Below, piece after piece: positions 6,503-27,832 of a DNA stretch of 33,736 bases. The notes under the pieces are model-generated. The model saw only the letters and a list, made by a program, of their open reading frames with translations, did not search any database and was not told the DNA's origin. This DNA comes from Lachnospiraceae bacterium (lineage in GTDB: Bacteria; Bacillota; Clostridia; TANB77; CAG-508): the NCBI GenBank assembly GCA_031262685.1, contig JAISHG010000025.1:1-33736 (forward strand). Reading direction: 5' to 3'. The translations under genes were made by a program, and so were the position numbers. The stretch's first letter is position 1. Every line of letters begins with the position of its first letter.

Positions 6503-6608
6503 AAGCGCTCCTCTCATAAACATCTCTTTCATTGTATCACATAATAAGAAGAAGAAATATTACTTTTGTATTACATTTATCATATCTTTCAGTTATATCA
6601 CGAAACGC

Positions 6609-6644
6609 ACAAAAAACGACTGTAAATATATTTTACAGTCGTTT
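6609..6644 (-). terminator. Terminator of the hsd operon
   Basis: A perfect 13-bp stem (AAACGACTGTAAA and its complement, 6614-6644) with a five-base loop is followed on the minus strand by TTTTTT. It lies about 120 bases after the hsdR stop codon and is the first terminator met by transcripts from the restriction operon. Confidence 0.85.
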
Positions 6645-6765
6645 ATCATAGGTAACCTACTTGTCCATATCGAACTCGCTTTCACAGAGTTTTATATAAA
6701 GTGCAATCGGGTATTTGTTAGTAGTATCAGTTAAGTATTATGTTTCAATTATATAAATATAAATG
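6645..6765. other. Intergenic tail of the hsd operon with a possible gene remnant
   Basis: Between hsdR and its terminator the sequence is less AT-rich than the flanking genes. A minus-strand frame without start reads about 27 codons ending CESEFDMDK and a stop; it looks like the tail of a lost gene. I see no promoter or RNA gene here. Confidence 0.3.
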
Positions 6766-9873: not shown

Positions 9874-9887
9874 ATGTATCGCTCCTC

Positions 9888-11030: not shown

Positions 11031-13593
11031 TATCCCCACCACCTAACAACGTTTTTAGTTCTTCTAATCCTTGCAAATCGAACTCATTTCCCACAAGTTC
11101 ATCTAAAAGTCCCGCCAAATCCTTACTTATAGAATCTATTTGTTCATCTAAACTTGATAGTGTTACATCATATTTGTGGACTTTTGCATCTACTTTTTTT
11201 ATAAACTCATCCACAACCTCGTTTGCAAGATTATCTATTTTTGTGCAAATAGGCTCTACCCATTTTATTGTTAAAACTATTTTTATTTCATTATCTGTTA
11301 AATTACTAATAAACTCTATTGTCTTTTTTTCTAGCTTTGCGTTTTTCTCTTTCACATCTTTATTTAACTTTTTCTCTTCTAGTACTAAGTCATCTACTTC
11401 AATAATTATATCCGCTATGTATTTTTCTACTACATCGGCGTCTTTTTTAATGCTTTTTGCCAACTTTTGCACGCCAGATTTTAAAAACTCTGTATTATCA
11501 TTATTTACTGCAATTTTTATATTTTCCTTCTCTTCTTCAGATAATTCTTCAAAAATTTCCACATATCTCGCAGATATGTCTTCTAATCTGTTATTTATAT
11601 TTTGTATTTCTTCAAGTTCATCTTTTAATTTATAATTCTGCATAAGTTCAAATGGCACAATTCTACCTTGCCATCCTGTTTGTACCTCTTCATCTTTTCC
11701 ATTTCTCTTTTTTATTTCAAGTTTTGGGTCAACTTTGCGTATTGCTTCCATTCCTTCCGTCTTTAATATTTCCAAATCTGCAGATATTTTTGTCCACTCA
11801 TCATCTAATACTTGATATGCATTATATTTATCTACAATTGGGATATTCTCTATTCGTTTAAATATCTCACTGGAAAGAATTTGCTCTGCAATATTTATAT
11901 TTACATCTAATGGATTTTGTACAAGAGCACCACTTAAATATGCAGAAAAATCATTAAATTCTTTCCTAAAGTTTTTTATGTAATTTTGTACATCTCTATG
12001 TTCTTTTATAAAATTTGCTACATCTTTGTGTTCTGTGCAATAATACTCATCATTTAATTTTTTAAATAACTCATTTTTTAAATTCGCAAACACACTAAAA
12101 TAATTATTTAATTTGTTTAATTCTACGCTTGGTATTCCGCCATGCATACATGCATACATATCAAAACTTTCTCTTTCTCCTTCTGAATCTACATACCTTG
12201 GAATGTTTAGGTTATATCCATTTGCTCGTATTTCTTCTATACTTACTACTTTTGCAAATTTTTCTTGTGATTTTCTTTCTATAAGTGTATCTACTATTTT
12301 CTTTATATCGCAAGCTCTTAGTTTGTTATTTTTACCATCTTTTATAAATCTTTTTGATGCATCAATTATTTGAATATCTGTATTTTCTTTTTGTTTTTTT
12401 AATACCATTATGATTGTAGGTATTCCAGTGCCAAAAAATATATTAGCTGGCAAACCTATTATTGCATCTATTTTATTTTTTTCTATTAAGTTTTTGCGTA
12501 TTTCGCCTTCTTCTCCACTTCTAGAAAGCACTCCATGCGGTAATACTATTGTCATTATTCCATCATTTTTTAAATGATATAAATCATGCAACAAAAATGC
12601 AAAATCTGCTTTGGATTTTGGCGCCATTCCATATTCTTTGTATCTTGGGTCAGATTCTTTATCTTTCGGATTCCAGTTTTGTGAGTATGGTGGATTAGAT
12701 ACTACACTATCCACATATAGCGGTGAATACTCGTGACTTTCATCAAAAAATGGCCAGTCATCTTCCAGCGTGTCCCCATTTCTTGTAGTTATATTATCTG
12801 GAAGTATTCCACGCATTACTAAATTCATTCTAGTTAAGTTGTACGTGTTTTGTTTTAGTTCTTGTGCATAATACTTTATTTTATTAGGATTTTCTATATA
12901 TTTTGCTGTAGCAGTACCAATATTTATAAGTAGGGACCCTGAACCACTTGTAGGATCATATATCTCTATATGATCTCTATTTTTTAAATGATTTGCTACT
13001 ATTTCAGACATAAGTAATGAAACTTCATGAGGTGTATAGAATTCTCCTGCTTTTTTACCTGCATTTGCTGCGAAATTACTTATTAGATATTCATATATAA
13101 ATCCTAAGACATCGTAATCTTGATTTCCATCCATTGGAATATCTTTTATTAAGTATATTACATCACTAACGGCTTTTGTTTGTGCTTTTGAATTTTCTCC
13201 AAGTTTACTTAAACCTGTTTGGAGTGTATCTAATATATTTTCGAACACTTTTTTATGACTTGCATTTATTAATCTATTAAAAGCAGATAATGCATCTCTA
13301 ACATTAGATACATCAAAATCACTTTTCTTTGCTATCCATGTAGAAAATAAGTTTTCATAAGCTATAAAATAGCCTATTCTTTTTTGCATTGATTCTACTA
13401 TTTCTGCATTCTCTTCTGTAACTATCTTTAGGTCTTCTAACCCCATTCCTTTTAAAACATTTTCCTCTTTATTTGATAAAAATTTATAAAAGATAAATCC
13501 CAAGATATAATCTTTGTACTCATTTGCTTCTATTTTCGAACGCATTTTATCCGCAGATTCCCATATTTTTGATGCTAATTGTTGTTTATTCAT
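11023..13593 (-). CDS. hsdM: Type I DNA adenine methyltransferase subunit, long form
   Basis: 856 residues. HsdM adds the N6-methyl group to adenine in the target named by HsdS. The N-terminal HsdM bundle starts QQLASKIWESADKMR. The methyltransferase fold has motif I DPTSGSGS (213-220) for S-adenosylmethionine and the catalytic NPPY motif at 300-303. Residues about 430-855 form a long, highly charged helical extension with coiled-coil character, much longer than the roughly 520 residues of classical type IC HsdM. The last part (LDEQIDSISKDLAGLLDELVG) may contact HsdS or HsdR. AAAGGAGA lies six bases before the start at 13593. The promoter is not obvious in the 61-base gap upstream, so it may be read from the 14432-14459 promoter together with the peptidase gene. 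Confidence 0.95.
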   Translation of the reverse strand: MNKQQLASKIWESADKMRSKIEANEYKDYILGFIFYKFLSNKEENVLKGMGLEDLKIVTEENAEIVESMQKRIGYFIAYENLFSTWIAKKSDFDVSNVRDALSAFNRLINASHKKVFENILDTLQTGLSKLGENSKAQTKAVSDVIYLIKDIPMDGNQDYDVLGFIYEYLISNFAANAGKKAGEFYTPHEVSLLMSEIVANHLKNRDHIEIYDPTSGSGSLLINIGTATAKYIENPNKIKYYAQELKQNTYNLTRMNLVMRGILPDNITTRNGDTLEDDWPFFDESHEYSPLYVDSVVSNPPYSQNWNPKDKESDPRYKEYGMAPKSKADFAFLLHDLYHLKNDGIMTIVLPHGVLSRSGEEGEIRKNLIEKNKIDAIIGLPANIFFGTGIPTIIMVLKKQKENTDIQIIDASKRFIKDGKNNKLRACDIKKIVDTLIERKSQEKFAKVVSIEEIRANGYNLNIPRYVDSEGERESFDMYACMHGGIPSVELNKLNNYFSVFANLKNELFKKLNDEYYCTEHKDVANFIKEHRDVQNYIKNFRKEFNDFSAYLSGALVQNPLDVNINIAEQILSSEIFKRIENIPIVDKYNAYQVLDDEWTKISADLEILKTEGMEAIRKVDPKLEIKKRNGKDEEVQTGWQGRIVPFELMQNYKLKDELEEIQNINNRLEDISARYVEIFEELSEEEKENIKIAVNNDNTEFLKSGVQKLAKSIKKDADVVEKYIADIIIEVDDLVLEEKKLNKDVKEKNAKLEKKTIEFISNLTDNEIKIVLTIKWVEPICTKIDNLANEVVDEFIKKVDAKVHKYDVTLSSLDEQIDSISKDLAGLLDELVGNEFDLQGLEELKTLLGGGDNE

Positions 13594-13654
13594 AACTTTC
13601 TCCTTTGTTATTTCTTTAGCTATTTATATCACAAAAATCGTTTTAATTCTACAA

Positions 13655-14389
13655 TTAGTACAATATCATATTTCTGTTTTTCTTTAACCATCTATTTATG
13701 TTTTTATAATCCGGTATATATTGTTCTACTAAATCGTAAAAGTCTTTACTGTGATTTGCATGTATTATATGGCACAATTCATGTACTATTACTGCATCTA
13801 TCACATTTTCTGGTAGCATTATTAATCTACTACTAAAATGCAATGTTTTACTTTTAACCTCACAGCTACCGTATCTTGCCTTTGCATCTTTTACACTAAA
13901 TTTGCTATAAGGAATTTTCGTAATGCTATTCCAATATGGCAATCTTCCCTGTATTAGAGCCGTTGTAGCCTCTTTAAATAGTTTCTTTACCGTTTTACTT
14001 ATTGTAGCATTTATATCTTGTTCATTTATACCGATAGGTAAAGTCACTCTTATTTGTTTATCGGTTTCCGAAATAGAGACATAACATCTTTTTCCCTGTT
14101 TTAGTTCTCGTACAATTTCAAATTCTTCACCTTTATAAAATATTGTTTCTCCAGTTTGCCATGTGCTTGTATTACTTTTTGTCTTTTCTATTCCAAGCAT
14201 ATAGGTGTTGTAAATAAACTGCTCATTTTCCTTAATTACTGGTATTATGCGTTTAATACTCAGCCTTGTGGGCTTTGTTATTACTATTTTATTGTTTCTA
14301 AAAAATATTTTTATACTTTTAGATGTCCTAAAACTTTTTATTACTATAGGTATTTGTATATTTTTTATACTAACCAATTGCTCCATCAT
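13655..14389 (-). CDS. YgjP-like zinc metallopeptidase
   Basis: 244 residues with the DUF45/YgjP domain. The catalytic zinc motif is VIVHELCHIIHANHSKDF (about residues 202-219): HExxH plus a third His four residues later. ARYGSC and the strand LHFSSRLIMLPENVIDAV, both typical of the family, precede it. The N-terminal half is beta-rich (ISETDKQIRVTLPIG). No signal peptide or membrane segment is present, so it acts in the cytoplasm. Genes of this family are frequently found beside type I restriction genes; the substrate is unknown. Here it is 61 bases upstream of hsdM on the same strand. AAAGGA lies nine bases before the first of two consecutive ATGs. Confidence 0.88.
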   Translation of the reverse strand: MMEQLVSIKNIQIPIVIKSFRTSKSIKIFFRNNKIVITKPTRLSIKRIIPVIKENEQFIYNTYMLGIEKTKSNTSTWQTGETIFYKGEEFEIVRELKQGKRCYVSISETDKQIRVTLPIGINEQDINATISKTVKKLFKEATTALIQGRLPYWNSITKIPYSKFSVKDAKARYGSCEVKSKTLHFSSRLIMLPENVIDAVIVHELCHIIHANHSKDFYDLVEQYIPDYKNINRWLKKNRNMILY

Positions 14390-15041: not shown

Positions 15042-16523
15042 TTACAAATCACAAATTTCTTTTAATTTTTGCCATATTTTAACCATAGCCAAAGTATCTA
15101 ATTTACAATATTCTAGTAACCCATATCTTATTTCGGCAATTTCTTCTTTACTCATGTTTTGCATTTTAGGAAATGCATCCATCGCTTCTCCACCATTATG
15201 TATTAATGGTAAGCTATGGTAATCTAGTTCTTCATCATTTGGAAATAGTGTTGGTAATACTTGCTTTATAGAATACGACCCTGCTAACTCTTTACTATAG
15301 AAATTCCTCTTTTGAAATGGTATCATCAAATCTTTAATATTATTGTGTATGTCCATTAAATGAGAGGATAAATCTTTGTAAATTGCAGCTAATTCTCTTA
15401 TTCTTGTTTTTTCAAAGCTCATATTATATGCAATAACACAAGAATTTGTAGGTATATCTTGAACTAACCTTTCTGCTAAAGCTCTTCTTGGATCTGTACC
15501 TTCTTTTGCTAAAAATTCTTTATGTTTTAACTCGTCGCCTTCTTTTTCTATGTAATGAAGAGAATATTGAAATGGCACTTGCATATATGGTCTAATACCA
15601 TCATATTCAGGAATTGCTGGCTGATATGTTTCAAAATCTAAAAAATATAATGGATAATATAGTTCATCTAAAAAATATTTAATTTCATCCTTTTCTATTT
15701 TAGTAGGCTTATCATTTACTTCAAAATCAATCTGTTCCAAAATTCTTTCATTCAATTTTTCGTTTATTAAATCTTCGAAAGTATATTTACCGCTGTAATA
15801 CATTTCAAACTTTTTTTGACTTTTTAATCTTCTTAAATTAAATACACTCTTTTCTGGAAGATGTTTGCTACAATATTTCCAATAAGCGCAGCCATACGGT
15901 TTTTGGCAATGAATTCCAATATCCTTCGTAGGTTCTTCCTCATTTTGCATATACTTATTAATTTCAATTATTTTTTTATGTACTTCATCTTGTTTATGTT
16001 CAACTATTTCGGTTACATCTTCTATTTTAAAAAGTCTGTTTAAATCCAACTCTCCTTTTCTTATGTACTTATTATTCAAATATATAAGATTTGCACTTTG
16101 CACTTCATATCCTAATTTTTTTAACACATATACTTGATAAGAAATATCCTCTATGTATATATCTTTTATTTCTGTAGAACTTTTTACTTCGTATATATCT
16201 AACTTACCTTCATTGTTTTTTAGAATATCTACACTACAGAAATTATTATCATATGCAAAAGATGCTTCTGTTATAACGCTACTGCCAGCTTCTAAATACT
16301 CTTTTGTTTTTTGTAGCATTTCATTTAAATTTTGGCTAAATTCTACATCTGAGTATTCACCGAATAGTCCCTTTGCAAGCTCTCCAACTTCATGTCCAGT
16401 TTCAAATCTAGATTCTAACGCCAATTCAGCCCTTTCTTCTGGTTTAAACTTATCTAACCATAATATTTTATTACATTGTATGCTTTTACAGTATTTAGAT
16501 TTTGACAATTTTACACTATTCAT
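15042..16523 (-). CDS. DUF2779 protein: Cas4-like Fe-S nuclease joined to a DnaQ-like exonuclease
   Basis: 493 residues from the ATG at 16523 (GGTGGAGA five bases upstream). The N-terminal half looks like a Cas4/RecB-type PD-(D/E)xK nuclease: an early CxxxxxC(NKILWL), GHEVGELAKGLF, SVDIL and LDIYEVKSS (metal-binding D, E and K), the YQVYVLKKLG helix, and then a Cys cluster CQKPYGCAYWKYC, consistent with a [4Fe-4S] cluster using the N-terminal Cys. The C-terminal half is the DUF2779 RNase H-like domain with DEDD-type motifs: LDFET, AYNMSFEKTRI and YCKLDTLAM. Two nuclease centres in one chain suggest strand processing of DNA. It is the last gene of a six-gene operon, two bases after its neighbour, and could be the effector. 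Motif assignments are from reading the sequence. Confidence 0.8.
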   Translation of the reverse strand: MNSVKLSKSKYCKSIQCNKILWLDKFKPEERAELALESRFETGHEVGELAKGLFGEYSDVEFSQNLNEMLQKTKEYLEAGSSVITEASFAYDNNFCSVDILKNNEGKLDIYEVKSSTEIKDIYIEDISYQVYVLKKLGYEVQSANLIYLNNKYIRKGELDLNRLFKIEDVTEIVEHKQDEVHKKIIEINKYMQNEEEPTKDIGIHCQKPYGCAYWKYCSKHLPEKSVFNLRRLKSQKKFEMYYSGKYTFEDLINEKLNERILEQIDFEVNDKPTKIEKDEIKYFLDELYYPLYFLDFETYQPAIPEYDGIRPYMQVPFQYSLHYIEKEGDELKHKEFLAKEGTDPRRALAERLVQDIPTNSCVIAYNMSFEKTRIRELAAIYKDLSSHLMDIHNNIKDLMIPFQKRNFYSKELAGSYSIKQVLPTLFPNDEELDYHSLPLIHNGGEAMDAFPKMQNMSKEEIAEIRYGLLEYCKLDTLAMVKIWQKLKEICDL

Positions 16524-16525
16524 TG

Positions 16526-17566
16526 CTATCTCCACCTTTTTACATCCTCTTCATTTAATCCTGCTAGTTTTAGTCCTTCGTCTGTAAACCAACACATATT
16601 GCTTTTACAGTCTTCTTCCTGTTTTATTATATCGTAAACATGTATAAATGTCATTATATCTATTTCATCTTTTATTAAATTACTAATCCCTCTTAATATT
16701 CTATGTCTACCTTCCAATTTACCTTCAAAATATTCAAATGTGTCATAATTCCAACAATGATCTGCATATAAAGAATCATCATCTATATAATATCCATATC
16801 CATTCATATCTGAACTGTCATAATTTCCTTCTGCCCTGCGCTTATCAAAATCTTCATACCATGTAATAATATCGCTTAATACAAAAACTTTTTTAGGAGG
16901 CGAGTCTTTAAAATACTCTTCTTGTGAAGTAAGAAGATCTCCTTTTTTAAATGGAGTAGGTATTTTTATAAATATATCGGAAATACTGCCATTAAACCAG
17001 TATATATAATCATCATATATTTCTAATAGTTCAAACTTATTATTACGAACTCTGTATTTTGCATTTATTTTTTGTATTTGTTTTTCTTTAATTTCTGTTA
17101 TTTCTCTTTCGATTTCATTTATATGTTTTTTATAAAGTAGAAACTCACCAATATCATTATTTTCCTCGTTTTTCTTAGAAATGCTCTCGAACAAATCGTT
17201 TATATTAGTAAATATGTTACTTATTTCGTTATCATCATAACTATCTGCAGATATGTAATATGGATTGTAATAATATATATAATTTTCTTCCTCCGTTTCA
17301 AGTTTTTTTATGTCATTTTTTACTCTTTCTATCTCTTGTTTTATCAGCCCTTTCACAGTACCATATTCTTTAGAATAGTTGTGTTGTGTTACTTCCATAT
17401 CTGGATAATTTTCTAATATCTCCTCATATGCCAATATTTTTTCATCAACCGTCATATTTTTATTTCTATAAATTAAAACTGCAACTTCTTCTGTGTTAAA
17501 TTTATGATTAATCTCCTTGCAATGTTTTGCAATTGCCTTTGAGCTTATTAAACTATATTCATCCAT
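16526..17566 (-). CDS. Unrecognised 346-aa protein with coiled coil
   Basis: AGGAGG lies six bases before the ATG at 17566. No family is recognised. Residues 1-80 look helical, about 80-175 is a long charged helix pair with coiled-coil character (EIERVKNDIKKLETEEENY; EIEREITEIKEKQIQKI), and residues about 176-235 form a small beta-rich unit (KYRVRNNKFELLEIYDDY, then IFIKIPTPFKKGDLL) that looks like an SH3-like barrel. An acidic Tyr/Asp-rich segment follows, and the end is a short helical domain finishing MCWFTDEGLKLAGLNEED. It is intracellular, with no membrane segment. It overlaps nothing but sits 10 bases after the 517-aa gene and two bases before the DUF2779 gene, so all three are made together. 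A scaffold or adaptor for the nuclease is possible but only inferred from context. Confidence 0.7.
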   Translation of the reverse strand: MDEYSLISSKAIAKHCKEINHKFNTEEVAVLIYRNKNMTVDEKILAYEEILENYPDMEVTQHNYSKEYGTVKGLIKQEIERVKNDIKKLETEEENYIYYYNPYYISADSYDDNEISNIFTNINDLFESISKKNEENNDIGEFLLYKKHINEIEREITEIKEKQIQKINAKYRVRNNKFELLEIYDDYIYWFNGSISDIFIKIPTPFKKGDLLTSQEEYFKDSPPKKVFVLSDIITWYEDFDKRRAEGNYDSSDMNGYGYYIDDDSLYADHCWNYDTFEYFEGKLEGRHRILRGISNLIKDEIDIMTFIHVYDIIKQEEDCKSNMCWFTDEGLKLAGLNEEDVKRWR

Positions 17567-17576
17567 TATAAACCTC

Positions 17577-19130
17577 CTAATTATTTAAAAAATTCATTTT
17601 ATTATATTTTACATACTTCGTTTTAGGGTCAAATTGTCTAATAAAAACATTCAAATTTTCCTGTACCGATAGTAGTTTATTATTCTTTACTTTATTACCA
17701 ATTATTTCTGGCATAATTCTTATACCATTGTATTTTGCAATAATATTTTTGTTTTCATCAAAATAATTAATTTGATTATTCTCACAAATCAAAATATATT
17801 TTTCTCTATATTTTTTACACAAATGAAATATTTTCTCTTTATTTTGTTCACTTAATAATATAAAATACGATAATCTTGTAGATTCTCTCCATACCCCACA
17901 TATTTTGCTATACCAATATCCTCGAATGGGTATATAGTTTAGTCCATTTTCTAATAATTCCTCTACTAATTCTTCATTCCACTTTTCTTGAACACTTAAA
18001 ATTGCAAACTTTGAATCTTTATAGAAATCTATTAATGTAGTAATATCGTTTTCTAAAATATCACTCAAAAAATTTTTTTGAATTCTAGTTTTTAGCCTAT
18101 ACTTATGAGTTATTTCCCTATACCATTCAGTCTCCAGTGTTATGTCTGGCAATTTAGCTTTACTACTTAATCCTTCTTTTATTGCTTCAGTAGATATATC
18201 CTCTATTTTATTGTGCTCTTTTACTTCACCTTTTCCGTCACATAATAGCAATGGCATACCATAATTATTACTTAAGGTTACAAATGTATCACAATGTTTT
18301 TTATAATTTTCTTCATCTAAAACGATAAAAAAATAATCATTTTGTGAAATTCTTGTATAACTATACCCTAGTTTTATCAATTCATTTTCTTGAAACCCTT
18401 TACTTTCTTTGCTAAATGGTGCACTTTTTATAATAGCAAAAGGACTTATTTTATATGGTTTTTCTATTAATTCTTTTACAAATTCTTTATATACATCTTC
18501 TTTAAAAACTCTCCTGCATCGCCATTTTAATTGTGTATCTTGGAGTGCCATTCCCATCCAAATATTAGACACAGACTTTCCATAGCATCTAACATCATCA
18601 TCGCTATTTATATCAATTTCAAATTTTATAAAATTAGTTTCTTCTTCCCTTTGCAATTGCGAAATAGATTCTAATATTAATTCGTCATTACAATATATTC
18701 TACTTTTTATTGGTTCACTATTAGTGCTGTTATATAAATAAAGTTCTTCTTGCGAAGGAATACAAATTATAGCATTTTCTTGTGCGTAGGTGGCAGTAAT
18801 ATCTTGAATTGCTTTAACAAATTCTTCTTCTTTCCACTGATAGTTTTTACTAATTGATAAAACATAAAAAATTTTTTCTATTTTATCGCTATAAATACCC
18901 TTTAACTTTAAATATCCAAACTGTGATATTTTAATTTTATTTTTAAACATATTTTTAGATACTTTATTAAATAATTCGTATTCTTTTTGAAGTTCTGAAA
19001 GTGGCTTTTTTATTGTATTTTCCATACTGTTTTTATTTATGTGATACAAATAATTTTTCAAATCAAGTTCTACACACACTATTGCAAAATACTTAGTTTT
19101 TAAAAATTCCGTAATATTATAATTACTCAC
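17577..19130 (-). CDS. Protein with three DUF3293-like repeats, GTG start
   Basis: 517 residues from the GTG at 19130, preceded by GGAG nine bases upstream; a TTG at 19145 has no ribosome site. Three segments share one pattern: a strand FAI(V/L/I), an acidic helix, a (L)GYxYxxI or LNYIPIxG turn, a hydrophobic (Y)F(F)I(V/L) strand and a Tyr-containing helix before a final strand. They lie at about residues 14-130, 228-300 and 372-460. The pattern resembles DUF3293 domains, whose function I do not know; the match is by eye. No catalytic motif or membrane segment is visible. The position inside the six-gene operon, between two unrecognised proteins, suggests a structural or sensor part of the same complex. 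Confidence 0.65.
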   Translation of the reverse strand: MSNYNITEFLKTKYFAIVCVELDLKNYLYHINKNSMENTIKKPLSELQKEYELFNKVSKNMFKNKIKISQFGYLKLKGIYSDKIEKIFYVLSISKNYQWKEEEFVKAIQDITATYAQENAIICIPSQEELYLYNSTNSEPIKSRIYCNDELILESISQLQREEETNFIKFEIDINSDDDVRCYGKSVSNIWMGMALQDTQLKWRCRRVFKEDVYKEFVKELIEKPYKISPFAIIKSAPFSKESKGFQENELIKLGYSYTRISQNDYFFIVLDEENYKKHCDTFVTLSNNYGMPLLLCDGKGEVKEHNKIEDISTEAIKEGLSSKAKLPDITLETEWYREITHKYRLKTRIQKNFLSDILENDITTLIDFYKDSKFAILSVQEKWNEELVEELLENGLNYIPIRGYWYSKICGVWRESTRLSYFILLSEQNKEKIFHLCKKYREKYILICENNQINYFDENKNIIAKYNGIRIMPEIIGNKVKNNKLLSVQENLNVFIRQFDPKTKYVKYNKMNFLNN

Positions 19131-19152
19131 TATACCATTCTCCAATCTACTT

Positions 19153-19830
19153 TTATCTTGTAAACCATCTGTCTTTTATTTCTCGAAATCCCCATTTTTT
19201 AAAGCCTTTTTCAATTCTATTGTAATCTGCAATTTCAGAATTTGTTAATTTTTTAGGATAATAACAGTTCCTCTTTTCGTTATATACTCCATCTAATGCA
19301 AAATACTTTTTCGATAGATATAGTATATTCGATTCTCCGCTACCGCCACCCCCTCCAATCCTTACTCCTCCTGTAAAATTTCTAAAACCAAATGATAGCA
19401 ATCCTCTGCAGCCTTCATCTTCTACGTTTGTATCTATAAATTCCGGAATTTCATTGCCTTGTTCATCGTAAGCCAATACCTTAAATCCGTTATCTCTTAA
19501 AATATCCCATCCACAGTATTTAAAACCTGATAACGCTGCAATAGTTATACTTCCTTTGGGTCTTCTAGAAAAATCCTGATACATTATTTGTACTTTTTTG
19601 TTTAAGTTTCGCGCAATTTTTTTTACTACTGATGAATCATATATAAATGCTATTTTTCTACTATTTTTAACTTTAAACATTACTAAATGCAATCTTCCAG
19701 CCCATTCTATAATCTTTTCAAATTCCTCATCGGAAACATCATCAATAATAGAGACAGTTGGATTTGCTTTTATTTTTGCAAATGATATGAAATCATTTAA
19801 ATCTTCTTTGAAAAACTTTTTTTCTTCCAT
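19153..19830 (-). CDS. Unrecognised 225-aa protein with Gly-rich loop
   Basis: The start at 19830 is chosen because AAGGAAGG lies five bases upstream; an ATG at 19878 overlaps the upstream stop but has no ribosome site. No family is recognised. The first half alternates helices and strands (FISFAKI, HLVMFKV, KIAFIYDSSVVKKIARNL). A central part has GFKYCGWDILRDNGFKVLAYDEQG. A strongly Gly-rich loop follows (TGGVRIGGGGGSGESN), then YLSKKYFALDGVYNEKRN and a basic C-terminal segment (KGFKKWGFREIKDRWF). The Gly loop lacks the K-S/T of a P-loop, so it is not a classical nucleotide site. It is the third gene of the six-gene operon, after the ADP-ribosylglycohydrolase-like gene. Confidence 0.65.
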   Translation of the reverse strand: MEEKKFFKEDLNDFISFAKIKANPTVSIIDDVSDEEFEKIIEWAGRLHLVMFKVKNSRKIAFIYDSSVVKKIARNLNKKVQIMYQDFSRRPKGSITIAALSGFKYCGWDILRDNGFKVLAYDEQGNEIPEFIDTNVEDEGCRGLLSFGFRNFTGGVRIGGGGGSGESNILYLSKKYFALDGVYNEKRNCYYPKKLTNSEIADYNRIEKGFKKWGFREIKDRWFTR

Positions 19831-19870
19831 ATAAACCTTCCTTTCTATTCTAACTTTTCTCGCTTTTTCT

Positions 19871-21349
19871 TTATCCATATGTTTTTAAATTTGGCAGGTG
19901 CTTTTTTAAGCATTCCTCTTCTTTTTTGGTAATATTTTGCGTTATTAACTCTAAGTGTACCAAATTTTTTAAATTTAAAAGTTCTTGGAAATTTATACAT
20001 TTAAAAGACATTATTGTTAAATGTTTTAAGTTTGTAAAATCTTTTATCATACTTAAATCAAATGGTTTCCCATTTGGCATCTCACTGCCATCACAGTGAA
20101 TACTAATGCTTTCTATCTGCTTTACATCTTTCAAACAACTTATATCTATATATTCAAAACCAAAATCCAATTCTAATCTCTTAAGTTTCTTGAGCTCCTG
20201 AATCCCTTGTTTTAAACTATTTATCTTACTTTGATGATTAATATCTACTTTTAATTCCTCTATATTTTTAAATTCTTTAATTGCCGAATAAGCCTTTATC
20301 CTATTATCTTTTCTATATCCATTTAGTAAGTACAAAAATTTCACTTTTGAAAATATTGTATATAGATGCAAATCCCAATTCAAATCACCATAAAGTATCA
20401 ACGATGTTGCATTTGTATTGCAAATGTGAGTAAAACATTCCTCTCCATGTAGAACGTCTTGTAGGAGCACCAATTTGTTTTTTTCTTTTGTTATTTGTTT
20501 AATTCCATATAATTGACCTGCGAGTGCTCCAACTAGCACAGTTATAATTGTTGAATTTCCAAGATATATCCCTCTTGCAATTGAATGTTCAAGACTGTCT
20601 GCATTCAAAAAGCACCAAAGTGTGGCTTCTAATGTATCCACTACATTTTCTGTGCTCTTTATACTACTTTCTTCATATTTGAAAATATCCTTATCTATAA
20701 TTCTGCTAAAAACCTTATTGTACTTATAATTTTCTTTTATATATTTTTTTAATTTTTCATATGCTACAAATTTATCGGATGTTTCTATTAAAAACTTAAA
20801 ATACATAACATAAATAAAACAAGCAAAAATACTTATTTGATTTCGATGTGTCAAACTACTTAAATCTTCTACCAATTTATAAATTTCATCATTTTTCGTT
20901 TTATGACCTAAAGCATAATACACAATTGGAAATATTCTTGAAAGAGAGGTGTTGGTATTATCTTCTTCATTGCCACTTCCTGCTTCTATTGCAGTGCAAT
21001 CAGTTTTTAATCTATTTTCTAAAGCATTTCTAGTTACTCTATCTAATTCAAAACTTCTACGAAAAGCAGTAAATCCACCTTGTTTATAGAAATATATAAA
21101 GTTTTCCATTATGTGTTCATAATCTATTAGTATTGTTTTAGAAATGCTGTTTATAGTAGCCCAAACCATAGATGTATTATTTCCCCAGACGCCTATTAAA
21201 GAAAGGTAATCATCGCATCTATTAAAAAATCCATACCTTAACAAACTTCCGTCTTTATATTTACTAAAATCTTTTCTTTTTAAATAATATCCTCCCGCTG
21301 CCTCTCCAAACACATATCCAATTAGCGCACTTCTAAAATTGGCTCTCAT
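19871..21349 (-). CDS. Degenerate ADP-ribosylglycohydrolase fused to leucine-rich repeats
   Basis: 492 residues. Residues 1-285 have the landmarks of ADP-ribosylglycohydrolases (DraG/ARH): the opening ALIGYVFGEAAGG, GVWGNNTSM, NTSLSRIFPI, SLTHRN, and DTLEATLWCFLNADS running into LGNSTIIT and GALAGQLYGI. Active members have GD in the first box, DDT in the second and a DTDT-type box near the end; here these read GY, NNT (57-59) and NST (265-267). All metal-binding acids are therefore replaced, so it probably binds ADP-ribose or a modified partner without hydrolysis, or has lost function. Residues about 330-490 are irregular leucine-rich repeats, a protein-binding module. The ATG overlaps the upstream stop as ATGA, with AAAGGGGG before it, so it is translationally coupled to the 126-aa gene. 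Confidence 0.78.
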   Translation of the reverse strand: MRANFRSALIGYVFGEAAGGYYLKRKDFSKYKDGSLLRYGFFNRCDDYLSLIGVWGNNTSMVWATINSISKTILIDYEHIMENFIYFYKQGGFTAFRRSFELDRVTRNALENRLKTDCTAIEAGSGNEEDNTNTSLSRIFPIVYYALGHKTKNDEIYKLVEDLSSLTHRNQISIFACFIYVMYFKFLIETSDKFVAYEKLKKYIKENYKYNKVFSRIIDKDIFKYEESSIKSTENVVDTLEATLWCFLNADSLEHSIARGIYLGNSTIITVLVGALAGQLYGIKQITKEKNKLVLLQDVLHGEECFTHICNTNATSLILYGDLNWDLHLYTIFSKVKFLYLLNGYRKDNRIKAYSAIKEFKNIEELKVDINHQSKINSLKQGIQELKKLKRLELDFGFEYIDISCLKDVKQIESISIHCDGSEMPNGKPFDLSMIKDFTNLKHLTIMSFKCINFQELLNLKNLVHLELITQNITKKEEECLKKHLPNLKTYG

Positions 21350-21726
21350 TTCTTAGCCCCCTTTAATTTGTACATATACTTATCCATTTCATCTATCGTA
21401 AGCGAATAGTATTTATCGGCAATTTTTTTAATTACAATAATATCTCCATATATATCCACACCATCTATTTGTCTATTTTCTTCTACAGGATAACCATCAT
21501 AATATCTATTTTTGTCTTCGTCACATGCTAAGAATTTAGGGTTTAAACATATTGCAAAAATATACTCTTCCAATTGTATAAACTTTAACTCCCTATTACT
21601 TTCTAGCAATTCCATCTTTTCTAATTCTGACCCTCTGTCATTTTTCATATAACAAATACTATCTAATACTTCAATTTCATCCAAAACCGGTGCCTCATAT
21701 GGCTTTATTTTAAGTATTCGCAACAT
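21346..21726 (-). CDS. Small DUF3846-like protein, first gene of the six-gene operon
   Basis: 126 residues from the ATG at 21726, which follows GGAGG by five bases; an upstream ATG at 21750 would include the ribosome site. It starts MLRILKIKPYEAPVLDEIE, has a central FIQLEEYIFAICLNP strand pair, then a block YPVEENRQIDGVDIYGDI and a C-terminal helix. The order (strand, acidic helix, a 'CN/CDEDK' turn, an NR-x-gly block and a terminal strand) resembles DUF3846 proteins of phages and mobile elements, by eye only. Function is unknown. It leads the operon, directly behind a promoter with an operator-like dyad, and overlaps the next gene by four bases, a position typical of regulators or small partner proteins. 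Confidence 0.65.
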   Translation of the reverse strand: MLRILKIKPYEAPVLDEIEVLDSICYMKNDRGSELEKMELLESNRELKFIQLEEYIFAICLNPKFLACDEDKNRYYDGYPVEENRQIDGVDIYGDIIVIKKIADKYYSLTIDEMDKYMYKLKGAKK

Positions 21727-21749
21727 ATTCCCTCCAAACAAAAAAATCA

Positions 21750-21775
21750 CTATATACTTTAGTAATAGTATATAG
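21750..21775. promoter_or_regulatory. Operator-like dyad over the -10 of the six-gene operon
   Basis: CTATATACT (21750-21758) and AGTATATAG (21767-21775) are perfect 9-bp arms eight bases apart, and one arm covers the TATACT -10 box. On the minus strand a run of seven T follows, so the same hairpin might also stop read-through from the WYL gene. A repressor site is the simpler reading because of the -10 overlap. Confidence 0.6.
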
Positions 21776-21795
21776 CAATTCCTTTGTTACAGCAA
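21767..21795 (-). promoter_or_regulatory. Promoter of the six-gene operon
   Basis: TTGCTG (21790-21795), a 17-bp spacer and TATACT (21767-21772) on the minus strand, 41 bases before the start at 21726. The TTG of the -35 is also the last three bases of a 28-nt element (21793-21820) that recurs at the AAA+ gene promoter. Confidence 0.65.
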
Positions 21796-21820
21796 TCGCC
21801 GTGGTCATATTTGGTTGTTG
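21793..21820 (-). repeat. 28-nt shared promoter-upstream element, copy 1
   Basis: This element matches 24575-24602 at 21 of 28 positions, with an identical 13-base core (ACCAAATATGACC on the minus strand). It ends on the TTG of the -35 box of the six-gene operon. It also contains the stop codon of the WYL gene. Confidence 0.65.
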
Positions 21821-22795
21821 TATCGTTTAATTGCTTCTTGCAGTATAGTTAGTAATTCTTCTTTTAATATTTTGGGTGTTAGTACTTCCACAAATTCTAT
21901 GTACTGCATTATCCACATTTTTAATCCTTTTAAGTTGACTTCTAACTTTGCTTTAAAGTAATCATCGTTTAGTTTTTGTATTTCTATATTCTTGCCGAAT
22001 TTTTCTAATACACCGTCTAATATCCTAATGTCACACTTTAGTTCTACTTTTTCTTTTTCTCCTCCAAACATATATACACTAGATTCTATAAATTCTTTTA
22101 TTGGCTGTTTAGGTTTTATATATGCTGCTTGCATATGTTTTATATTCTTTATTCTGTCTAATCTAAAAAATGAATAATCGTTATATCGTTCATTATAGCC
22201 TATTAAGTAATAAAATTCATTTTCACATAGTATTCCATATGCACTTACTCTGTTTTCTCCTTGTTTATGTAGTCGTTTATCTAATCCATATTTGTAATAA
22301 TCAAATTCTATTTTTTCCTTACGCCTCATGCTTAGCGAAATTTCTTCTATATTATGTAGTACTTCTTGATTTATTGTTTTTGTATTTTTATCAAAAATCG
22401 GATAATGCTCATTACTTTGTATTACTTCTAATTCGTATTGATTTAATAGTAGTTTTAATTTGTCTACTATTTCTTTTGAAAACTCAACTTCCATAAATTT
22501 AGAATATGTAACCAGATCCATAAGCATTTTTACTTCACTTAATTCAAATTCTTTTGTGCGCAAATAATAACCTTTCCTATTTTCATTAAAGCCAGAAATA
22601 TCTATTCCGCAGTTTTTCTACTAAAACAGCAAGATTTCTTCTAACTGTTCTATCTTCTATTTGTTCACCATATTCTTGTTTTACTAATTCTATAATTTGT
22701 TTTGTGCTTAAAATGTGGTCTATATCTGAATACTTTTTTAGTACCTCATATATGTAAAAAATATTTCCTAAGTTTGTATGTAATATATCTGGCAT
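21805..22795 (-). pseudogene. WYL-domain transcriptional regulator broken by a frameshift
   Basis: The first frame (22795 to 22586) encodes a helix-turn-helix of about 60 residues (LSTKQIIELVKQEYGEQIEDRTVRRNLAVLVE) and then stops. The second frame continues the same protein: GIDISGFNENRKGYYLR, a WYL domain (ENEFYYLIGYNERYNDY, FRLDRI) and a C-terminal WCX region. Removing one base from the A5 run (T at 22613-22617) joins them as LVEN-CGIDISGF, a natural sequence, giving about 330 residues. WYL regulators such as BrxR and CapW repress defence operons. This gene stands between the AAA+ gene and the six-gene operon, so it is the likely regulator of one or both. If the frameshift is real, repression is probably lost; an assembly error is equally possible. 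AGGAGGG precedes the ATG at 22795. Confidence 0.85.
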
Positions 22796-22818
22796 GTTTT
22801 AGCCCTCCTACTGCGAAA

Positions 22819-22847
22819 ATAATATCACAATTATTTTCCTATTTCAA
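22819..22847 (-). promoter_or_regulatory. Promoter of the WYL gene
   Basis: TTGAAA (22842-22847), a 17-bp spacer and TATTAT (22819-22824) on the minus strand, 24 bases before the start at 22795. Confidence 0.7.
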
Positions 22848-22862
22848 TAAATGTGTTTAATA

Positions 22863-22884
22863 GGGCACCTGTGGACAGGTGCCC
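22863..22884. repeat. REP-like palindrome
   Basis: GGGCACCTG, four-base loop, CAGGTGCCC: a perfect 9-bp G/C-rich stem in an AT-rich gap. On the minus strand it is preceded by TTGTAG-like sequence (TTGTAGGGGCACC), a form common to dispersed palindromic repeats in clostridia. No T run follows on the side that would end the AAA+ transcript, so it is a weak terminator at best. The rest of the gap 22885-22952 holds nothing I recognise. Confidence 0.6.
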
Positions 22885-22952
22885 CTACAATGCAACTATA
22901 TGGGATTACTACCTACAAAGACCTAATTTTCCCGATATGCTATGCGATAAAA

Positions 22953-24515
22953 TCAGCTTGCGAATCCAATATTTCTTTTTAGAGATGTTGTTTTTATTTT
23001 TTCTGTAACACATGAAATATCGTCTACTGTAATTAAATCATAATCTTTTCCATCTTGATTTACTAATCTTAATGCTTGTTCAAATTTGATTTTTTCGAAT
23101 AAGTTTCTTACTAAACGCCCATTGCCAAAGCTTTCTTTCTTGTTATCAATTTCATTTTTGAAATATTCAATTACTACTTCTTTTCCGCCATCTTCTATTA
23201 CAAATTTTTCTTGTTTTACTTTAAGCATAAATATTTCATATAATTCTTCTTCTGTATAATCTGGAAAGTCTATATAAAACTGTATTCTACTTTCAAACCC
23301 TGTATTTGCTTCTATTAGATTTTTCATTTCTTCTTTATAACCTGCTAAAATCACGCACAACTCTTGTCTGTTGTTTTCCATTTCTTTTATTAAAGTAGCT
23401 ATACATTCATGTCCAAAATCATTTTTTCGTTCATCTACGCCAAGTACCAATGAATAAGCTTCATCTATAAATAAAACTCCTCCCAAGGCAGAATCTATAA
23501 CTTCTTTTGTTTTTAATGCAGTCTGACCAACATAACCTGCAATCAAATTATCTCTAGAAGCTTCTAAAAAATTACTCTTATTGTCTAATACCTCTAATTC
23601 CGAAAATATTTCTCCAATAATTCTTGCAACGGTTGTTTTCCCTGTTCCTGGGTTCCCTGTCATACACATATGAAGAGTAGGCATACTTCCTCTTTCTTTA
23701 TGTATTTTCACATATGCCATTATTTTTTTTACTTGCTCTTTAACTGAATCCAAACCAATGAGTTCGTCCAATTTTTGCATTGCTCTTTTTTCGTTTTTTG
23801 GCTTAGATTCTTCTTCCATATTAAAATACTCTTCTTTTAAGACTTTACTTCTATGGAAATCCGCATTTACCATGCCAGCAAAAAGTGTTCTTTCTATTTC
23901 TACAATAGGCTTAGTACACAAATATTCTATAGTTCTTTCTTCATTTTCAAATTTGAAGCTATTTTCTTCTACTACTTTTGCAATTTGTTTTCTCTTTTCA
24001 GTATCTGTTAATTTTTCTAGTACTATATCCCAATAAAACCAGTTGCCAGTATATTTTCTTATAGATTTTATTTTTTCACTTTTGCTAACCAAAATGTATA
24101 CATTGTTTGGGTATTCTTCCATAATTCTTACTAATTTCGAAGCTTCATATCTAAGTGATGAATCATCCATTTGAAATACATATACTTCACTGCCTTCAGT
24201 ATTCTTGACCGAGTTGTAATTTTGTATCTTAGTATATTTTCCTTTTACTATTTTTTTTGCAATCAAAATATCATTTATTATAGATATAATTGCATCATAT
24301 TCGTAACTTTCTTGGGTACAGTCAATTATCATATTCAAATTTCCAATATTAAACTTGTTTTTACGATACTGTCCTGCATACTTATTATATAGTTTTATGG
24401 TTTCTTTTGCTGTTTGGTATCCAAGTATTTCGTCCAATCTTTGAATTATGCCTGATTTTCTAGGTTTCTTTTCTTCCAATTTTTCTTCAAAATCTTCTTC
24501 CTTAAATTGTTCCAT
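22953..24515 (-). CDS. CbbX/SpoVK-like AAA+ ATPase with a dead N-terminal AAA copy
   Basis: 520 residues. The C-terminal AAA+ module (about 240-515) is complete: LDELIGLDSVKEQV entry helix, Walker A GNPGTGKT (287-294), pore-type GYVGQTALKT, Walker B VLFIDEA (347-353), sensor 1, an arginine in FESRI and sensor 2 in NGRLVRNLFE. Residues 20-205 align with the same fold: LDEILGYQTAKETI, a strand ending in DCTQESYEYD where Walker A should be, VYVFQMDD for Walker B, then YPNNVYILVSKSEKIKSI and an LTDTEKRKQIAKVV lid. The first copy therefore lacks the ATP-binding residues. Members remodel protein complexes in the cytoplasm. AGGGGG precedes the start. It shares an upstream promoter element with the six-gene operon. 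Confidence 0.88.
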   Translation of the reverse strand: MEQFKEEDFEEKLEEKKPRKSGIIQRLDEILGYQTAKETIKLYNKYAGQYRKNKFNIGNLNMIIDCTQESYEYDAIISIINDILIAKKIVKGKYTKIQNYNSVKNTEGSEVYVFQMDDSSLRYEASKLVRIMEEYPNNVYILVSKSEKIKSIRKYTGNWFYWDIVLEKLTDTEKRKQIAKVVEENSFKFENEERTIEYLCTKPIVEIERTLFAGMVNADFHRSKVLKEEYFNMEEESKPKNEKRAMQKLDELIGLDSVKEQVKKIMAYVKIHKERGSMPTLHMCMTGNPGTGKTTVARIIGEIFSELEVLDNKSNFLEASRDNLIAGYVGQTALKTKEVIDSALGGVLFIDEAYSLVLGVDERKNDFGHECIATLIKEMENNRQELCVILAGYKEEMKNLIEANTGFESRIQFYIDFPDYTEEELYEIFMLKVKQEKFVIEDGGKEVVIEYFKNEIDNKKESFGNGRLVRNLFEKIKFEQALRLVNQDGKDYDLITVDDISCVTEKIKTTSLKRNIGFAS

Positions 24516-24531
24516 ATATAATCCCCCTTAC

Positions 24532-24564
24532 AAATATTTAACGATATAAATATACTAAATATTT
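24532..24564. promoter_or_regulatory. Dyad around the -10 of the AAA+ gene
   Basis: AAATATTTA (24532-24540) and TAAATATTT (24556-24564) are perfect 9-bp arms with a 15-bp centre that contains the -10. The arms are pure AT, so chance occurrence is more likely than for the other dyad. Confidence 0.35.
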
Positions 24565-24577
24565 TGCAAAGGCTCAA
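24549..24577 (-). promoter_or_regulatory. Promoter of the AAA+ gene
   Basis: TTGAGC (24572-24577), a 17-bp spacer and TATATT (24549-24554) on the minus strand, 34 bases before the start at 24515. Confidence 0.55.
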
Positions 24578-24602
24578 ACGGTGCGGTCATATTTGGTGCT
24601 TG
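24575..24602 (-). repeat. 28-nt shared promoter-upstream element, copy 2
   Basis: Second copy of the element described at 21793-21820, with the same ACCAAATATGACC core and the same placement: its last TTG is the start of the -35 box. It lies just after the mcrC stop codon. Confidence 0.65.
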
Positions 24603-24609
24603 ACCAGTC

Positions 24610-25968
24610 TTAAGTTTTTATATTAAAATTGTCCCAAATACTATCATGCAACTCTGTTTCACTCTCTTCCATTTTCTTTCTAAAAGTCTTATATTCATTT
24701 TCATATGTGTCTTTTTTGGGGATATTAAAACTACATTTTTTCACTATATCATCTCTAATTCCTTCACCCTTTTTTTCATCATATGTTGTACCTGTCTCTA
24801 CGCACAACTCTGAATTTTCTGGATTTTCTAGATTATCTTTTTCTGGATATATGTATATTCCTTTTTTAGCTTCAAACCTAAACATGTATGCTAAAATTTG
24901 CAAATAATCTTTACCATGTATATTTTCAAATGGTTTATATTTCGCATCAATAATAATACGATTAGAACTATCCTTACTGATAAAATCCGGATAAATCCAA
25001 CCAACTCTATGTTCTTTAAATAAATATTGTTTTCCTTCTGACTTTTTATTTCTCGGATGATAGAATTTTTCTCCTATTAATAAGTTAACATACTCTTCCC
25101 AAAGCCATGCACCATCAAACAAAATACCTTTAATTTTATCATTACTCTCATGCATTTGATGCTTTTCATGTCGCAAAATCATAATACATAAGCGTTGCAA
25201 TGCTCTATATTCGTAATAAAAGGCATGTCTTAATGGATTGCTAATATTTTCAAATATAATTTTATCTCTATCATAATATTTATAATTATCTGTTGCTGCA
25301 ATAATTGCCATAACTTCATCTTTAGTTTTTTGTAAAAATTCATATCCGTGTGGTTTGCTTTTAATAAATTCAATCGTATGGCGAATTAGCTCCATTAAAC
25401 TATTGTCATACGAAAATTCACGTACATTGTAAGAAAATTTTCCAACAAAAGGGGTGTTTTCCCTAAAATGCCTAGAAAAATCTATACTACCTCTTACATT
25501 TTCATTATTATAATGTTTTACAATATATGTTTTATAAAGACCTTTTCTCATTGCTAATTTTAGATAGTATGGAAACATAAAAAACAATAAGTCAAATACT
25601 TGATTATCATTATTTGAAGTAGTAACTAATTCAAATATATTGGGTAAATCTAAAACTTTTTCCAATAAGTATTGAAAAAAGAAATCCGAGTCACTTTCAG
25701 AAAATCTTGACTTAATTATTAGCTGTTCCTCACCTAATCCTATAAATCCCATAACATTGCTCGAACAATAACGATTATCTACACTTTTTATAACCACTTG
25801 TTCTTTTGTAATATCGTCAGATTCCTTTAATATTTCCGGAAAAACAAATAACCCGTCTTCTTCAAGTTGTCCCAATGTTTTATTAGCAATCTTTTCAATA
25901 AGATTGCTAATATCATTAAACTCTTTTTTTTTCTTCTTTGAATTATCATTCATTACTATCGGTTTCAT
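24610..25968 (-). CDS. mcrC: McrC-type nuclease subunit of McrBC
   Basis: 452 residues from the ATG at 25968, with GGTGGAGG six bases upstream; an ATG at 25992 would overlap that site. McrC is the endonuclease partner of McrB in modification-dependent (type IV) restriction. An N-terminal beta-rich McrB-binding part (about 1-140) is followed by the conserved block VKHYNNENVRGSIDFSRHF and REFSYDNSLMELIRHTIE, and then the PD-(D/E)xK nuclease: YPDF (about 326-329), IIIDAKYK (catalytic D341 and K343) and the helix YLQILAYMF. It is about 100 residues longer than E. coli McrC. It overlaps the end of mcrB by 23 bases, which ties their synthesis together. The nuclease residues are intact. Confidence 0.92.
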   Translation of the reverse strand: MKPIVMNDNSKKKKKEFNDISNLIEKIANKTLGQLEEDGLFVFPEILKESDDITKEQVVIKSVDNRYCSSNVMGFIGLGEEQLIIKSRFSESDSDFFFQYLLEKVLDLPNIFELVTTSNNDNQVFDLLFFMFPYYLKLAMRKGLYKTYIVKHYNNENVRGSIDFSRHFRENTPFVGKFSYNVREFSYDNSLMELIRHTIEFIKSKPHGYEFLQKTKDEVMAIIAATDNYKYYDRDKIIFENISNPLRHAFYYEYRALQRLCIMILRHEKHQMHESNDKIKGILFDGAWLWEEYVNLLIGEKFYHPRNKKSEGKQYLFKEHRVGWIYPDFISKDSSNRIIIDAKYKPFENIHGKDYLQILAYMFRFEAKKGIYIYPEKDNLENPENSELCVETGTTYDEKKGEGIRDDIVKKCSFNIPKKDTYENEYKTFRKKMEESETELHDSIWDNFNIKT

Positions 25969-27832
25969 TTTGTTCCTCCACCTTATTTTCATATGCTACT
26001 TTCTTATTGTAATATGCTACTTTGAATTTTTCCATAATATCTTTAGTATTATTTAATCCTCGAACATAGTCTTGCAATAGTGGTTCTAGTTGATCTTCCC
26101 ATAAGTCCTTAAATGTTAATTCTTCTAATTTTTTAAAATAAGCAGCACCAATGTGATAGTTTTCATTTAATTCTGGTACATCAGATATTTCTTTATTCAA
26201 ATTTTTCATACGTGTAATTATTTCTTCTTTATTTTCTAAATTATTAAGCATATCTGTGTTTTCATTTGCTTTAATTTCAATAAATCTAAAACGACGACGC
26301 ATTGCAAAATCGAAACTATCTACAGAACGGTCTATATCGTTCATTGTCCCAATAATATATACATTGTCTGGTATGTAAAAATTCTTTCTATCTTCTTCAT
26401 TTTCATATAGTTCTTGATATTGTGTACTAACTGCTCCTTTGGGTCCTACGTATACAGGATCTATTCCTCTGTATTCAGGATCTATACTGAAAAATAGTTC
26501 CCCAAAAATTTTAGAAATTTCACCTCTGTTAATTTCATCAATTATAAAAACATAATTTTTCTTTTTCGTCTTTACGTCTTTATTTTGTACTATATTCGCC
26601 TTATTCTTTCTATTTTTCATTTCTTTATACAAAGCAAGATAATATGAATAATGTTGGTCTTCAGACTTTTTTTCAACAATTTCTTTTAGATCCATTGCTT
26701 TTGTGAATTCTTTATCACTTATCAACATTTTTTTAAGAACATCTATCTTCAACTTTATCTCATTATACCTAGCATTATTTGGAATGAAAATATAAATATC
26801 TTTATCATCTGTATTTGTTATACAGAACTCATTTCCACTAGCTATCTTAAACCTCTTATTTTCTATTTCTGCATTTTCTAAGTAGTCATCAATTATGCTT
26901 TGTGCTGTATTCTCTTTTTTAATAGTTTCTTCTGTCTTATCTGAATCCTCCAAATTTTTTATAGCACGTTCAACAAATTTTTTAAATTTACCCTTTTTAA
27001 CCTCAAATTCCATGTTTCCATCTGTGTTTAGTTTTGGACGTATCCCTTCAACAAAATCTGAATAATCATAATTTGGATGAAACTGTACAAATTCTATTTG
27101 TTCTTTTTCTGTAGAGTCAAGACCCTCATATTTTTTTTTACCATTACTAATTATATCAGCTGCTATTTCTTGTGCTAAATATGTTTTCCCAGTACCAGGA
27201 GCACCTCTTAAAATTATATTTTTTGATTTTTTTAATTTATTCGAATATTCATTTTGATAGTCAATTGTAGTGTTTTCTTCATTGGTTATTTCTGTTTCTC
27301 CCTTAGTATCACTAATAGTTTCTCCATCGACTGTTTCTTCTTCATCACCTGCATTCGTTTCTGTATAAGTTAAAATAAATTTATCTTCATCTTCTCCAAA
27401 ACGATTTAAACACTCTTGTACAAAATGAATTGTAGAAAAAACATTATAACAAGAAAACATAAATATTTTATTATCATATTCATATTTCATAAATCCTACT
27501 TTATTGTCTTCTTTTCTTGTAAAAATACCTCTATAAACTTTTCCCTTAGATGTATATTTACAAATAGGAAAATTCATTTTCTCCTCATCAGACAATTTAT
27601 CAAGTTGCTTCTCAAATATTCTACAAGCGAGTTTAGGCATTGTTCTATTATTCACTTCCTCGTTATTATCCTCTATACTACAAATTTTCTTTCCATTTTT
27701 TTCAAAACAAACTTTTTTTGGCACATAGTTATCTCCTAAATTTAGATTATCCATTGTAAAACGCTCATCAGTTGATTCTGGTACTTTGCCTTTAGTGATA
27801 GTTAAAATATACTCTTCCTTTTTATTTTCCAT
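25946..27832 (-). CDS. mcrB: McrB-type AAA+ GTPase subunit of McrBC
   Basis: 628 residues. McrB uses GTP to translocate on modified DNA and drives McrC to cut. The motor domain carries Walker A GAPGTGKT (210-217), Walker B VFIIDEINRG (428-437), the MNDIDRS motif (497-503, McrB signature is MNxxDRS) and RRRFRF (512-517). Residues 1-150 form the target-recognition part: a KGKVYRGIFTRKEDNKVGF beta-rich unit and then HFVQECLNRFGED. It does not resemble the E. coli McrB DNA-binding domain, so the recognised modification is unknown. An acidic linker (about 160-195) joins the parts. GGGGA lies nine bases before the ATG at 27832. The gap to ybjQ upstream is only 72 bases; I could not fix a promoter in it. 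Confidence 0.92.
   Translation of the reverse strand: MENKKEEYILTITKGKVPESTDERFTMDNLNLGDNYVPKKVCFEKNGKKICSIEDNNEEVNNRTMPKLACRIFEKQLDKLSDEEKMNFPICKYTSKGKVYRGIFTRKEDNKVGFMKYEYDNKIFMFSCYNVFSTIHFVQECLNRFGEDEDKFILTYTETNAGDEEETVDGETISDTKGETEITNEENTTIDYQNEYSNKLKKSKNIILRGAPGTGKTYLAQEIAADIISNGKKKYEGLDSTEKEQIEFVQFHPNYDYSDFVEGIRPKLNTDGNMEFEVKKGKFKKFVERAIKNLEDSDKTEETIKKENTAQSIIDDYLENAEIENKRFKIASGNEFCITNTDDKDIYIFIPNNARYNEIKLKIDVLKKMLISDKEFTKAMDLKEIVEKKSEDQHYSYYLALYKEMKNRKNKANIVQNKDVKTKKKNYVFIIDEINRGEISKIFGELFFSIDPEYRGIDPVYVGPKGAVSTQYQELYENEEDRKNFYIPDNVYIIGTMNDIDRSVDSFDFAMRRRFRFIEIKANENTDMLNNLENKEEIITRMKNLNKEISDVPELNENYHIGAAYFKKLEELTFKDLWEDQLEPLLQDYVRGLNNTKDIMEKFKVAYYNKKVAYENKVEEQNETDSNE

Follow-up and report, generated by a model that had tools for sequence, protein, structure and literature searches.

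In a 33,736-nt stretch of DNA from a Lachnospiraceae bacterium (contig JAISHG010000025.1; the whole stretch is hereafter called the window), two copies of a short element lie directly upstream of two promoters 2.8 kb apart, one leading a six-gene operon and the other leading a gene for a CbxX/SpoVK-type AAA+ ATPase. We propose that the element is an operator, situated at about -57 to -42, through which a WYL-domain regulator encoded between the two copies activates both sigma-A-type promoters. From comparison with related loci, we put the probability of this reading at roughly 0.75.

Both copies are on the minus strand. Copy 1 (21820-21793) and copy 2 (24602-24575) were identical at 22 of 28 bases by our own count, not at 21 as in the original prediction, and the 13-base core noted there, ACCAAATATGACC, was exact in both (21815-21803 and 24597-24585). 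The minus-strand letters read CAACAACCAAATATGACCACGGCGATTG at 21817-21790 and CAAGCACCAAATATGACCGCACCGTTTG at 24599-24572, with the word TATGACC at 21809-21803 and 24591-24585, respectively. As had been claimed, the last TTG of the element is the start of the -35 hexamer in both copies, and both spacers are 17 bp: promoter 1 (21767-21795, minus strand) consists of TTGCTG (21795-21790) and TATACT (21772-21767), and promoter 2 (24549-24577, minus strand) of TTGAGC (24577-24572) and TATATT (24554-24549). The spacing of promoter 1 equals that at the sites of other species. Copy 1, upstream of the six-gene operon, overlaps the stop codon of the WYL gene, and copy 2, upstream of the AAA+ gene, starts 8 bp past the stop codon of McrC.

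The evidence that carries this reading is a phylogenetic footprint. Related loci were gathered by searches with the AAA+ protein and with the p346 protein encoded in the six-gene operon, and their neighborhoods were retrieved; a search for named relatives returned one distant locus only. Within the family and order, about 50 loci from other species contained the same cluster, that is, a DUF2779 nuclease, a WYL regulator, variable genes, and a CbxX-type AAA+ ATPase. The cluster is conserved yet shuffled, the usual order being DUF2779, a nuclease-like gene in some cases, WYL, variable genes, and AAA+. In these loci, ATACAWTATRTGACCA-N6-TTG-N17-TATAAT was found in the intergenic gaps 5' of the AAA+ gene, of the gene after WYL, or of DUF2779. 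TRTGACC words in intergenic regions of the cluster loci numbered 65 on the cluster strand and 2 on the opposite strand, compared with 24 and 29 within genes. Seven positions that were used to select the sites are conserved by construction, whereas the C at motif position -5, the T or TTG at +14, and the -10 box at +37 were not used. C was present at -5 in 56 of 60 sites and T at +14 in 58 of 60. TTG began at +14 in 29 sites, and every other offset was represented by at most two. A -10 box with at least five of six matches stood at +37 in 45 of 57 sites, which came from 36 loci of other species. Thus the alignment of upstream regions that the original prediction had proposed as a check revealed the element at an equal distance from the -35 and -10 boxes in the related loci.

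A 25-position profile trained without the window ranked copy 1 (19.5 bits) and copy 2 (12.6 bits) first and second in the window, the next match scoring 8.2 bits; scores of at least 12.6 bits occurred at 2 of 740,652 opposite-strand positions. When each locus was left out of training in turn, all 35 WYL-bearing loci, the window included, yielded a site of 17 bits or more on the same strand, and sites of at least 13 bits numbered 88 on the cluster strand and 1 on the opposite strand. Likewise, 38 pattern matches within 12 kb of the AAA+ gene were on its strand and none on the other. The homologous loci, together with the lack of scattered copies in the genome described below, support the earlier proposal that the AAA+ gene and the six-gene operon have a regulator site in common.

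The gene between the two copies (21805-22795, minus strand) encodes the candidate binder, a regulator composed of a winged helix-turn-helix (wHTH), a WYL domain, and a WCX domain. In the window protein, the WYL match was 2.6e-11 and the WCX match 1.8e-5. The wHTH was a weak match, to HTH_12 in the L158 locus. A frameshift near 22607 divides the gene into two open reading frames (22586-22795 and 21805-22563), and its orthologues are single open reading frames of about 330 aa; the frameshift may be an assembly error in this 136-contig genome or may indicate a dead regulator. The gene has its own promoter-like site (TTGAAA-17-TATTAT; 22819-22847, minus strand; a consensus match only) without the element, which fits a regulator that is present before the signal.

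We then related the element to the regulator over 390 genomes of the family using the pattern RCAWWNTRTGACCRN6TT. Of the 57 genomes that have this WYL family, 44 contained the pattern, compared with 60 of the 333 that lack it (p = 3e-18). Among several of the 60 WYL-less genomes that were inspected, the matches were within genes or palindromic in some and at cluster genes in others. Among genomes without the AAA+ gene, the pattern occurred in 8 of 12 with WYL and in 58 of 327 without (p 4e-4). Where an AAA+ locus had the element but no adjoining WYL gene, a WYL gene was found elsewhere in all 10 genomes tested, and the association included genomes with WYL on another contig; in genomes whose AAA+ locus lacked the element, WYL was found in none of four tested. 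The link between element and WYL is a correlation, but it holds in trans, beyond what linkage alone explains. These results suggest that the WYL protein of the cluster is the likely factor that binds the element.

Regarding the direction of control, the original prediction had spoken of an activator or repressor site. The shared site stood, and its sign can be refined: the WYL protein probably activates both units, because the -35 boxes are weak across sites (median four of six matches), the -10 boxes are near consensus, and the element lies just upstream of the -35 at a fixed distance. On switching by a ligand, the WYL protein would dock RNA polymerase at each of the two promoters and turn on the AAA+ gene together with the six-gene operon. 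The characterized WYL activators DriD of Caulobacter and PafBC and SiwR of mycobacteria, which belong to the DNA-damage response, act at -35 to -26 (PMC12340889, PMC11804915, PMC10693628), and single-stranded DNA is the ligand of DriD and PafBC. They resemble the present case in the wHTH-WYL-WCX protein, in a fixed site near the -35 of promoters with a weak -35, and in having several promoters per regulator. On the other hand, the DriD site, ATACGAC(N7)GTCGTAT, is centered on the -35, and PafBC and SiwR use a -26 motif, whereas the element here is non-palindromic and lies entirely upstream of the -35. When the WYL profile was compared with the PDB, just two isolated WYL-domain entries were found, with E of about 0.004.

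The same operator and the same WYL binder could instead form a repressor system released by a signal, in the manner of BrxR or CapW. In favor of this, the characterized BrxR-family defense-linked WYL regulators repress (PMC9122601), and BrxR and CapW are likewise WYL regulators inside a defense-like locus that they control. However, the inverted repeats through which they act lie either at the promoter or beyond it on the downstream side, while the element is found upstream of a weak -35 and lacks a strong dyad, so we regard repression as unlikely. The element differs from the sites of both the WYL activators and the BrxR group in position or symmetry and would resemble them in how it works.

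A further alternative is that another factor, such as a global regulator, a contact for the C-terminal domain of the RNA polymerase alpha subunit, or an alternative sigma factor, recognizes the element and that WYL is a passenger of the cluster. The position just above the -35 could suit an UP-like (upstream) or class-I contact, and some genomes have the element without a WYL match. Against this, the element is largely confined to this cluster and its satellites, it tracks WYL even across contigs and in genomes lacking the AAA+ gene, its GACC core does not resemble an AT-rich UP element, and the -10 is of the ordinary sigma-A kind. Taken together, a different binder appears quite improbable.

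Several points nevertheless weigh against activation by the WYL protein through the element. The element stands at cluster genes in several genomes without a WYL match (e.g., G380, G218, G189, G205), mostly incomplete assemblies, and two genomes (G352, G221) have a divergent WYL as their sole WYL. A genuine frameshift, as opposed to an assembly error, would mean that the window has a dead regulator and relic sites. Compared with the other WYL-bearing loci, the window has some of the weakest sites, and these are off consensus at motif positions -4 to -2; both copies deviate there identically, and this speaks for a joint change rather than decay. The element has no clear inverted repeat, unlike most characterized WYL dimer sites, although it contains ACA/ACC triplets 10 bp apart. 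The sites of related species are not independent of one another, though they span many genera and two families. Copies of the element were no more alike within a locus than between loci (0.516 vs 0.509, p 0.38). Within-genome co-evolution of the copies was dropped as a test of a shared factor, the excess of similarity being absent. It should also be mentioned that two nearly complete genomes without WYL (G019 and G042; loci L246 and L245) share an intergenic element-like site 5' of unrelated small genes.

The dyads around or over both -10 boxes, which the original prediction had described, are present, and that of copy 1 is larger than stated there. At promoter 1, a hairpin with a 22-pair stem (21737-21788, minus strand) extends over the spacer and the -10, with a T-run in its 3' arm; its predicted fold is -22.4 kcal/mol (z -6.97), and it is probably a terminator of the upstream (WYL) transcript that overlaps the promoter. 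At promoter 2, a hairpin (24525-24572, minus strand), in which the arm beginning with CCTTTGCAAA pairs with the arm ending with TTTGTAAGGG, covers the Shine-Dalgarno sequence AAGGGG of the AAA+ gene (24529-24524). The predicted unpaired fraction of this Shine-Dalgarno was 0.01 in the read-through RNA and 0.71 in the transcript started at the promoter itself; over 22 AAA+ sites, the corresponding values were 0.25 and 0.69. The outer arm of hairpin 2 matters in this model, because a shorter stretch of copy 2 without it folds poorly. A hairpin score of at least 10 was reached by 44% of sites versus 3% of shuffles. Many AAA+ and after-WYL promoters had strong dyads, whereas DUF2779 promoters, usually the first of the cluster, were at background level. 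The arm sequences of the dyads varied by locus while the pairing was kept.

Could the -10 dyads, rather than the upstream element, be the operators? Both window promoters have them, and palindromes over a -10 would suit a repressor. However, the arms differ among loci while pairing persists, and the 3' arms fall on T-runs or Shine-Dalgarno sequences. Because the element occurs at DUF2779 promoters with no dyad, we read the dyads as probable read-through blocks and not operators; this secondary idea of the original prediction is probably wrong, and in our view it is very unlikely. RNA reading in from upstream would terminate at copy 1, or hide its ribosome site at copy 2, and should be silent. 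The hairpin around each -10 would then be a second lock, with the proteins made mainly from the regulated start. A precedent is found in the leaders of T4 gene e (lysozyme), soc, 49, and I-TevI, where a hairpin encloses a late promoter and, in read-through RNA, masks the ribosome site (PMC3014915). The likeness to the gene e leaders consists in a promoter within the 5' arm and in a Shine-Dalgarno that is hidden in read-through RNA and free in its own transcript, which is predicted here. The arrangement differs in combining a bacterial sigma-A-type promoter with a putative upstream operator, and in the apparent use of a terminator instead of Shine-Dalgarno occlusion at copy 1.

Copy number was examined in the entire 1.15-Mb assembly. 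Exact copies of ACCAAATATGACC were the two window sites only, with none for a reversed control pattern, and near copies with at most two mismatches numbered 21, compared with 32 for the control. A dispersed repeat such as a repetitive extragenic palindrome (REP) or a miniature inverted-repeat transposable element (MITE) was therefore ruled out, and the scattered copies away from promoters that the original prediction had named as a possible refutation were not found. The full 58-nt model run over the same genome was swamped by AT-rich promoter matches; the sole better-scoring match that covered the element was at C5:4632, opposite a serine-recombinase-like gene (judged from sequence). Searches of plasmids, Rfam, and viral contigs gave nothing relevant to the element. 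The AT-rich window contained 202 repeated 13-mers, and 28 of 100 shuffles had at least two matches with at most two mismatches. Because 13-base repeats are so common in such DNA, the window statistics are insufficient by themselves to prove the repeat meaningful, and the phylogenetic footprint decides. A chance repeat, a recombination scar, or a target-site duplication around a 2.8-kb AAA+/WYL insertion could draw on this frequency and on the exact bracketing of the AAA+ and WYL genes by the two copies, but it is already refuted by the footprint, in which about 50 other loci with varied gene orders share the element, its strand, and its spacing to the -35 and -10.

The first target gene (22953-24515, minus strand), with the WYL gene next downstream, encodes the AAA+ ATPase with an N-terminal extension. 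The protein is like CbxX/CfxQ, SpoVK, and EccA in its AAA core and AAA_lid_6, but all NCBIfam scores were well under the cut-offs and the gene context differs; domain searches assigned no family to its N-terminal 240 aa. The six genes of the operon, all on the minus strand, are tightly packed and led directly by the copy 1 promoter. Gene 1 (21346-21726) encodes 126 aa of no family, with its ATG at 21726 after GGAGGG. Gene 2 (19871-21349) encodes an ADP-ribosylglycohydrolase domain with a weak leucine-rich-repeat match; gene 3 (19153-19878) belongs to the p241 family, which also adjoins AAA+ in other loci; and gene 4 (p522; 17577-19145) has no family. Gene 5 (16526-17566) belongs to the p346 family, whose domain in other species is joined to pieces resembling DnaB or PolC. 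Searches of Pfam, NCBIfam, and PHROG gave no significant match to the gene 5 protein, and none was found in the PDB for its fold, which was predicted with medium confidence (pLDDT 77). Gene 6 (15042-16535) encodes the DUF2779 protein with a Cas4-like nuclease region and has its own element in other loci; no paper naming DUF2779 with WYL was found among the open-access papers searched.

A type I restriction-modification system (3989-14389) and McrBC (24610-27832) flank the cluster, and in its gene content the window looks like a defense island. The region 3989-6532 encodes a protein with a legume-lectin-like domain. A perfect palindrome, GGGCACCTGTCCACAGGTGCCC, lies at 22863-22884 in the gap between the AAA+ and WYL genes; it occurs at eight places in the genome with at most three mismatches, compared with none for the reversed control, and is a small dispersed REP-like repeat.

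In other species, some of the genes between WYL and AAA+ join the p346 domain to DnaB-C or PolC pieces, and separate cargo genes are FtsZ-like, DnaJ-C-like, macro-domain, and metallo-beta-lactamase genes. Elsewhere, a 406-aa RNase J-like gene also carries the element. Genes resembling core cell proteins under or near the element were seen at L158:4115-8662, L071:2725-7042, and L226:4672-5892. The PDIDLN motif reads PDIEIY or PDIELY in two PolC-like pieces. As a hypothesis, such cargo might serve as decoys for phage takeover proteins. On a viral contig (L264:33-4438), a PolC-like C-terminal piece is followed a short distance downstream by two p346-like genes. The element is absent there. Phages may be carriers of the p346 domain. 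As a tentative extension, for which we have limited confidence, the element might be the master switch of an undescribed modular immune locus, in which a WYL activator would control the AAA+ ATPase, the Cas4/DUF2779 nuclease, and changing decoys (DnaB, PolC, FtsZ, DnaJ, and RNase J pieces, ADP-ribosyl hydrolases, and macro domains, some of them fused to the p346 domain), with promoter-in-hairpin locks on the internal units. If this were true, phage takeover proteins would be sensed on attacking the decoy copies.

How defense-like loci stay off until needed is a live question, and the gene set controlled here is little known and defense-like. One short DNA word, conserved across many genera in two or more bacterial families, ties a WYL regulator to several units of an uncharacterized cluster, and the internal units are predicted to carry a second lock at the RNA level. 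The element may be used as a search key for unlinked members of the regulon, and it provides testable predictions for organisms represented here by small draft genomes.

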